Source: Glandiceps talaboti
Taxonomy: Eukaryota > Hemichordata > Enteropneusta > Spengelidae
DNA length: 64,000 nt
Reading direction: 5' to 3'
Assembly: GCF_964340395.1 (NCBI RefSeq)
Contig: NC_135555.1
Coordinates: 712,501 to 776,500 of the forward strand
The translations under genes were made by a program, and so were the position numbers. Of this stretch, positions 29,701-32,700 are shown piece by piece (within the stretch, counting starts at the first letter, position 1; every line of letters begins with the position of its first letter). Under the pieces are notes generated by a model. It worked only from the letters and a program-made list of their open reading frames with translations, had not been told where the DNA came from and did no database searches.

Positions 29701-32700
29701 AATCGTACAAAATTTACGTGCTGAGTTGGAATCATACGGTACAAAATTTACGTGCCCAGTTGGAATCATACAAAATTTACGTGCTGAGTTGGAATCATAC
29801 GGTACAAAATTTACGTGCCGAGTTGGAATCGTACAAAATTTACGTGCTGAGTTGGAATTGTACAAAACTTACGTGCTGAGTTGGAATCGTACAAAATTTT
29901 TGATGTTGTAAAAGATAGCTTTGCCTTCTTCAATAGCTGACATGATAGTATGGAAATCTTCATTAACTAGAATCATGTCTGCTGCTTCCTTTGAGACATC
30001 AGTACCAGTTTTACCCATTGCTATACCAATATCTGCAGCTTTTAAAGCGACAGCATCATTAACACCATCTCCAGTCATACCAACTACTGCACCATTCACT
30101 TGTAATGCCTGGAGAAGAAATTACAACATGGATGACTACCTAAAAACTCATATCCAGTCAAAGTTATTTTAGTACACTTGTATTGATTACTGCTATCAAC
30201 TTAAAGGAAAAGTCCAGTCAGACTTATTTCTCCCTTTAGTACACTTGTATTGATTACTGCTATCAACTTGAAGGAAAAGTCCAGTCAGACTTATTTCTCC
30301 CTTTAGTACACTTGTATTGATTACTGGTATCGCCTTTAGTACACTTACAGTTACTGCTATCACGTTAAATATAATTTTGGGTGATAAAATAGAACGTCAG
30401 TAAGTTAAAAAACTCTGAAATGTTTTCTAGATAACACTTTTATACAAACCTTGACAATTCTGAGTTTATGTCTAGGACTTGCTCTGTAAAATACTGTAAC
30501 CTGCAATGTCATAAAAAACACCATTAGAAACAGAATATGACAACTTGTCTTTAATATTTCACAATTTCTTTGGTTAGTATAAGTTTGGTAGGTGACATGT
30601 GAAAAGTTGTCTCTTTCCAATCTCTAGTGATAAGAATAACCCACATGGGGGATAACTTTAACCTCTCTAGTGATAAGAATAACCCACATGGGGATAACTT
30701 TAACCTCTCTAGTGATAAGAATAACCCACATGGGGATAACTTTAACCTCTCTACTGATAAGAATAACTCACATGGGGAATAACTTTAACCTCTCTAGTGA
30801 TAAGAATAACTCACATGGGGATAACTTTAACCTCTCTACTGATAAGAATAACTCACATGGGGATAACTTTAACCTCTCTAGTGATAAGAATAACTCACAT
30901 GGGGATAACTTTAACCTCTCTAATGATAAGAATAACTCACATGGGGTATAACTTTAACCTCTCTAGTGACAAGAATAACTCACATGGGGATAACTTTAAC
31001 CTCTCTAATGATAAGAATAACTCACATGGGGATAACTTTAACCTCTCTAGTGATAAGAATAACTCACATGGGGATAACTTTAACCTCTCTAATGATAAGA
31101 ATAACTCACATGGGGATAACTTTAACCTCTCTAGTGATAAGAATAACTCACATGGGGATAACTTTAACCTCTCTAATGATAAGAATAACTCACATGGGGA
31201 TAACTTTAACCTCTCTAATGATTAGAATAACTCACATGGGGGATAACTTTAGCAAGTTGTTCTATGTCCATTTCTTCAAGATCTTCACCTGCCATTGATC
31301 TACTACCTTCTGCATAAAGACCTAGTCTGCTGGCTGTAATGGACATCAAAGCAGAAAGAAATCATTTCAAGAACTAAATAATTATACTCAAATATGATCA
31401 TTAACAATATTACACATCATATCTAACCACTTTACCTGAACAGTACATTCACCATCAACAGTACATTCACCATCAACAGTACATTCACCATCAACAGTAC
31501 ATTCACCATCAACAGTACATTCACCATCAACAGTACATTCACCATCAACAGTACATTCACCATCAACAGTACATTCACCATCAACAGTACATTCACCATC
31601 AAAAGTACATTCACCATCAACAGTACATTCACCATCAATAGAATTGCTGCACACAATCAAGTAATGTTTCATTTTTAATACAATCTTCTTGATCTTAAAT
31701 TATGCAGTGGTTGATGCAAACAGATAAGTATATATTAAGTAGCATCTATTGATCAGTTGTCAGTGACTGAGGGGGTTAGTTCATTCTGGCCCATTGATGG
31801 GTTGTCAGTGACTGAGGGGGTTAGTTCATTCTGGCCCATTGATGGGTTGTCAGTGACTGAGGGGGTTAGTTCATTCTGGCCCATTGATGGGTTGTCAGTG
31901 ACTGAGGGGGGTTAGTTCATTCTGCCCCATTGATGGGTTGTCAGTGACTGAGGGGGGTTAGTTCATTCTGGCCCATTGATGGGTTGTCAATGACTGAGGG
32001 GGGTTAGTTCATTCTGGGCCATTCTATCACTGCAATCCAAGTTCAAACCAGCCTAGCACAAAACACAGGTTATATCAAATAACCAGGTCTATATGTATGA
32101 ATGGTGTTGTTTAGTTTGACCCTACAATGCAGGTTTTCCCTGGTACTTTGTAATTTCCTCATGCTGTAACATTTCAACACCAGGGTGCTACACAGTGGTG
32201 ACTATGATAACAAATTTATGAATTCATTTGAACCAATAAAGATTATAATTATATTATCATTATGATATCTCACCTATGGCAACAGCTGTTTCTACAGAAT
32301 CCCCAGTTACCATCTTGATAGTGACCCCTGACCCCAGTAGTGTCTGTATATAATCTATAACACCTGGTCTGGGTGGGTCTATGATTCCAACTATACCAAC
32401 AAAAGTCAATGCATTCGGATCTGTACCCATCGCAAATCCAAGAACTGAAAAGTAAATAAAAATATCAAGATAGTGATGACACATGTAACTACAGTTTTGA
32501 CAACAAGTGAAATAAAAGTAGACAGTAATTTATGTACAGTGAGGTATGCTCTCTAGGGAATTATGAAAGCATAGGCATTGTACCACTATGGGTCTGTGCC
32601 AGGGTAAAAACTACACAGAGCTTTGAACTGGTTGGGGGGAAGAACTTCATAAACTATGTGCATTATTAAGATGAAGTAACACATCCAACTCACCTCTAAG

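Follow-up and report, generated by a model that had tools for sequence, protein, structure and literature searches.

Minisatellites whose unit lies across an exon–intron boundary, so that splice signals are kept in many copies, have been described in amphioxus as "mirages." Mirages were first found in Adh3 (Nucleic Acids Research 2002, as cited in PMC3087553) and are carried by the globin genes BflGb6 and BflGb9 (PMC3087553), and a troponin C mirage and similar repeats in PGBD5 are described in PMC3902484. The authors of the globin study took the Adh3 data and their own reverse transcription PCR to suggest that regular splicing is undisturbed, and proposed that such repeats contribute to intron gain (PMC3087553). 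Here we describe an array at the donor of coding exon 16 of SPCA1/ATP2C1, a gene that lies complete on the minus strand of a 64,000-nucleotide stretch of the hemichordate Glandiceps talaboti (contig NC_135555.1, positions 712,501 to 776,500, from a 590-Mb assembly; hereafter the window). Exon 16 shows three features of a mirage, namely tandem units of minisatellite size, a unit across the exon–intron boundary and splice signals kept in many copies. It differs from the amphioxus examples in belonging to a hemichordate, in its size at one site (15 units, 12 of them with equal donors), and in being one of three donor arrays in a single gene; moreover, the amphioxus mirages come with expression and instability data, whereas the Glandiceps arrays are known from the sequence of one assembly. 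Human genes in segmental duplications likewise carry minisatellites (about 30 bp on average) at exon–intron boundaries, in young paralogs where the repeats alter splicing or make new introns (PMC2812944), unlike SPCA1 and its neighbor rotatin, whose proteins are conserved and whose NCBI models use only the exon-attached copy. Earthworm metallothionein genes have minisatellites within an intron, and the part of that report available to us makes no mention of splice-site copies. No report of boundary arrays in a hemichordate was found in the open-licence literature searched; the Glandiceps arrays are of the mirage kind already known, in a phylum that is new as far as searched.

A 22-exon model of SPCA1 translates without internal stop and scores 1371 bits against human SPCA1 structures, and a 23-exon model (first coding exon 56109-56002, second from 46907) reproduces every residue of a 944-aa NCBI protein, P0001, named calcium-transporting ATPase type 2C member 1-like [Glandiceps talaboti]. 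This confirms the assignment to ATP2C1 exon 16 made in a preliminary description drawn from the letters of the window. The 3′ end of exon 16 reads AAAGTTATCCCCCAT/GTGAGT (the slash marks the exon–intron boundary), and its last 16 nt together with the donor belong to unit 1 of an array that extends into the intron, each of the 15 copies consisting of these 16 nt and about 26 nt of intron. Units 1, 8, and 12 measure 43 bp and the remaining complete units 42 bp. All 14 intronic copies keep the GT, within GTGAGT in 11 and within GTGGGT in three, the latter being units 13–15. The preliminary description had therefore read the locus correctly in taking the exon end as unit one, in its repeat every ~42 bp and in the count of 14 further copies (11 GTGAGT and three GTGGGT); its remark that the copies are one C shorter than the exon end holds for 13 of the 14 but not for the outermost (unit 15), which has the same five C.

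Given that the 15 units are near-identical, a chance origin is excluded. The preliminary description had also named copies of the unit elsewhere in the genome as the sign of a transposed repeat. A genome search with a 28-base unit pattern gave 11 matches with at most two mismatches, all 11 of them inside the exon 16 array; the pattern misses the four units that have one base more, and the search skips very common words. A dispersed repeat or transposed satellite is therefore rejected for copies within this limit, more diverged ones not having been sought. Units two apart resemble each other more closely than neighbors do, both in units 2–13 (mean distance 0.70 vs. 1.64) and across all 15 units (1.38 vs. 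1.79), suggesting that the array grew at least partly by 84-bp dimers and pointing to past turnover.

We scored the copies with a donor weight matrix built from 21 of SPCA1's own donors. The true exon 16 donor and 11 decoys all score 8.1, and the three GTGGGT decoys score 3.9, so that the site presents 12 equal donors rather than the full 15 that had been suggested as an upper figure. Translation past the true donor meets a TAG at the seventh codon, still within unit 1, and the predicted products of all 14 decoys end at this one common stop, at residue 604 of the 902-aa model, in agreement with the earlier statement that a stop follows within seven codons and that decoy use would truncate the pump. 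We also considered that RNA structure might hide the decoys. This was rejected, as the true donor has a predicted accessibility (0.33) no different from that of the 11 equal decoys (0.33–0.45); the three weak decoys are predicted to be more paired than the rest.

Based on these results, we consider it likely that the exon 16 feature is a junction-spanning minisatellite, or mirage, that arose by ordinary growth and is tolerated through its exon context. The founding event would have been a short tandem duplication that copied the exon–intron junction, and slippage or unequal exchange would have multiplied the duplicated junction, the coding sequence being spared because the copies fall on the intron side. 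Exon context (the upstream acceptor, exonic enhancers, and exon size), and not the 9-mer, would select the exon-attached copy; the decoys would be silent or, if used, would yield early-stop transcripts that are degraded. According to the NCBI protein model, normal splicing at exon 16 would use the first donor only. The array is probably nearly neutral. Several points weigh against this interpretation. Where donors are duplicated in minigenes, the intron-proximal 5′ site is often the one used, which here would favor the decoys. The NCBI models, from which first-donor use is taken, may rest on protein homology, and an assembly error in the array is possible. Finally, the amphioxus globin authors allow that the copies may act as cryptic sites (PMC3087553), and in human genes boundary repeats can alter splicing (PMC2812944).

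The exon 16 array is not singular: similar arrays occur at other splice sites of this gene and of others. Two more SPCA1 donors lie inside arrays with units of their own, at exons 18 and 12. At exon 18, all 12 copies are weakened to GTAAAT against the true GTAAGT, and at exon 12 the GT is gone in 4/4 copies, so that no copy equals the true donor at either site (0/12 and 0/4). At exons 12, 16, and 18 alike, the donor implied by the NCBI protein, an annotation model, is the first one. None of the 22 SPCA1 acceptors (the 22nd being that at 46907) lies in an array. Tandem arrays make up 21.9% of SPCA1 introns, with 476 of 940 nt in intron 15 and 615 of 735 nt in intron 16. Intron 15 contains further arrays at 31439-31638 (18 bp x11) and 31748-32023 (46 bp x6).

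One of the neighboring genes is rotatin, for which the NCBI Glandiceps protein P0121 maps onto 47 exons. Of its 46 donors one lies in an array, and of its 46 acceptors two do. Acceptor decoys at least as good as the true site were found in 4/6 copies at exon 35 and 3/3 at exon 38. A rule that no decoy outscores the true site is contradicted at exon 35, where the farthest copy scores 9.2 and the true acceptor 6.3. The NCBI rotatin model, again an annotation model, takes the exon-attached copy each time, that is, the first donor or the last acceptor.

Alternatively, the exon 16 decoys could be regulatory, their tandem donors binding the U1 small nuclear ribonucleoprotein so that poison splicing tunes or switches the gene, or the array serving as an intronic enhancer. 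Such a role would suit the identity of 11/14 decoys to the true 9-mer and the truncation at one residue predicted for 14/14. We nevertheless regard it as unlikely, given that the decoys are dead or weak at SPCA1 exons 12 and 18, that unrelated genes carry boundary arrays with different units, and that P0001 and P0121 are each represented by one sequence in the protein collection, with no decoy isoform, although a truncated form may be undeposited.

Beyond these two genes, we scanned predicted exons in the window and 100 kb on either side (264 kb), judging candidates by eye. Two donor arrays belong to what appears to be one CUB/LDLa gene. In the first, six of the 12 scored copies equal the exon's donor and the other six are weakened to GTAAAT. 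In the second, 38 of the 40 copies that were scored are equal to the exon's donor, and the 29-bp unit begins with GTATGT and ends with TCTCTTACAG, so that most unit junctions read TCTCTTACAG/GTATGT, an acceptor-like sequence followed by a donor. The gene itself is defined by predicted exons, one with a Pfam LDLa hit and the exon before it with a CUB hit, a protein search at E 1e-10 having given no match; the exon with the 33-bp array has no Pfam hit and is presumed to belong to the same gene. Recursive splice sites, or ratchet points, are a known family of acceptor-then-donor sites, which the LDLa array resembles at most of its unit junctions; unlike them, its units are short (29 bp), the likeness is one of sequence alone, and the SPCA1 array is not involved. 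No report of an acceptor–donor array was found in the open-licence literature searched.

We further examined seven 10-kb stretches of other chromosomes, picked by protein family (Cu-ATPases, Na,K-ATPase, and myosins) and not for arrays. Among their 60 predicted exons (32 + 28, a few surely false), three donors and no acceptors overlap an array. The genes were assigned by Pfam family hits, and motifs that we take to be characteristic of Na,K-ATPase, Cu-ATPase, and myosin also support the names. A further flag in the Na,K-ATPase stretch, at predicted exon end 7801, was dropped, the exon end being misplaced. The coordinates of all these features are collected below.

Table. Features of the SPCA1 locus and of other splice-site arrays in Glandiceps talaboti. 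Positions are those of the window unless a stretch on another chromosome is named.
Feature	Position	Strand	Basis or detail
SPCA1/ATP2C1 coding span, 23 coding exons	26621..56109	-	Gene model and NCBI protein
SPCA1 coding exon 16, 98 nt, ...LAKVIPH/V	31236..31333	-	Translation of 23-exon model is identical to NCBI P0001
True exon 16 donor GTGAGT	31230..31235	-	Implied by NCBI protein
Exon 16 array, 42-bp minisatellite, 15 units	30621..31251	-	Tandem Repeats Finder (TRF): 42 bp x14.9, 96% matches
First in-frame TAG past true donor	31215..31217	-	
11 decoy donors CATGTGAGT, units 2-12	30766..31193	-	Identical to true 9-mer
3 weaker decoys CATGTGGGT, units 13-15	30639..30729	-	
SPCA1 coding exon 17	30450..30500	-	Gene model; splice partner of exon 16
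SPCA1 coding exon 18, donor CAC/GTAAGT	29873..30108	-	Gene model; donor inside second boundary array
Second boundary array, exon 18, 29/34-bp units	29474..29892	-	
SPCA1 coding exon 12, donor GAG/GTAAGT	33671..33766	-	Gene model; donor inside third boundary array
Third boundary array, exon 12, ~41-bp units	33496..33703	-	
Rotatin exon 17 donor array, 50-bp units x3.5	-51175..-51000		CAA/GTAAGT in 2/2 complete decoys, equal to true
Rotatin exon 35 acceptor array, 78 bp x6.8	-41923..-41404		AG kept in 6/6 upstream copies
Rotatin exon 38 acceptor array, 69 bp x3.9	-38676..-38407		AG kept in 3/3 upstream copies
Rotatin stop-codon array, 61-bp units, ~6 copies	-25428..-25067		Units hold last codons and stop; extends into 3′ flank
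Predicted CUB-gene exon and array, 33 bp x15.3	148263-148950		ATT/GTAAGT at start of array
Predicted LDLa exon and array, 29-bp unit	149261-150932		Exon followed by ~53 copies (x53.6)
Na,K-ATPase donor array	L032:393-941		17 copies scored: 15 without GT, 2 with weak GT
Myosin donor array	L034:9259-9604		Copies mostly keep GT, with lower scores
Cu-ATPase duplication of exon tail	L029:8108-8241		Single duplication, no second donor

The LDLa array, whose units start with a donor and finish acceptor-like, speaks for the intron-gain model published for the amphioxus globins (PMC3087553), under which the exon 16 copies would be an intermediate offering recruitable exon ends and splice sites. We find this improbable, as none of the copies is seen to have been recruited, NCBI's models of both SPCA1 and rotatin take the exon-attached copy only, and the exon 16 unit contains an in-frame stop. 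Also improbable is a repeat collapsed or expanded in assembly, for although two amphioxus assemblies disagree on the PGBD5 repeat number at splice sites (PMC3902484), unit variants are ordered along the exon 16 array and different units form arrays at other boundaries. We favor a mirage grown by ordinary minisatellite expansion at exon 16.

In total, ~334 kb (264 + 40 + 30 kb) yielded eleven splice-site arrays, of which nine are at donors and two at acceptors. Their decoys range in strength, as many as 40 copies were scored in one array, and several of the arrays belong to conserved genes. Tandem arrays with a period of at least 9 occupy 15.3% of the 200-kb flanks. A separate array of a 30-bp unit (x61) lies at 21000-22830 of the window, with long open stretches in all three minus-strand frames, up to 632 aa. 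We compared the boundary arrays with a null in which each array grows from a random founder unit not wholly within an exon, the first SPCA1 intron being left out. SPCA1 and rotatin together have six boundary arrays against 3.7 expected (P=0.16), which rejects a strong enrichment at junctions and gives no sign of purging; for SPCA1 alone (21 introns), a gene chosen because of its array, P is 0.020 for donors and 0.11 (or 0.14 with the array list used for the two genes together) for any boundary. Neither strong attraction of arrays to splice junctions nor strong purging from them is seen.

The bias toward donors is weak (nine vs. two, one-sided P=0.033; eight vs. two, P=0.055 without the exon 16 site), in a tally that includes some loci found by looking for arrays. 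The exon scan by itself is little proof: donor-side candidates numbered seven at a score of at least 22 and three at a score of at least 30, against means of 3.6 and 0.6 in five shifted controls, and acceptor-side candidates one and zero, against 2.4 and 0.8. The candidates examined were the higher-scoring ones plus the LDLa array from the lower ranks; donor candidate C was set aside since its array looks like in-frame coding sequence, and acceptor candidate 3 was dropped as ambiguous. In SPCA1 and rotatin, the G at position -1 is missing in 3/4 array donors compared with 6/64 others (Fisher P=0.006, post hoc). The effect is weaker (P=0.019; 0.06 without the exon 16 site) in a wider and noisier set of 54 exons, which missed the myosin array through a stricter cut-off, and in that set the overall donor consensus match is not lower at array donors.

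A broader reading, which we put forward tentatively and think somewhat less likely to be right than wrong, is that in this genome minisatellites are founded on junctions about as often as elsewhere in genes and go unpurged because splicing takes the first donor or the last acceptor. At each of the six boundaries in SPCA1 and rotatin that carry an array, the NCBI models use the exon-attached copy, even with as many as 11 decoy donors equal to it and, in one case, an upstream acceptor that outscores it. Arrays may also be retained chiefly at sites whose decoys are weak or dead, have no G at -1 or are paired with an acceptor, the part concerning -1 being post hoc.

How a choice is made among equal splice sites is an old question that has mostly been studied in built minigenes with few copies. 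The Glandiceps genome offers natural tests of splice-site choice among identical copies, and if the use of the exon-attached copy also holds at the LDLa exon, with its 38 equal decoys, site strength would be almost irrelevant after exon definition. These observations suggest that mirages are no amphioxus oddity and may be a consequence of carrying many minisatellites, and that genomes of this kind contain numerous sites from which new splice forms and introns could arise.
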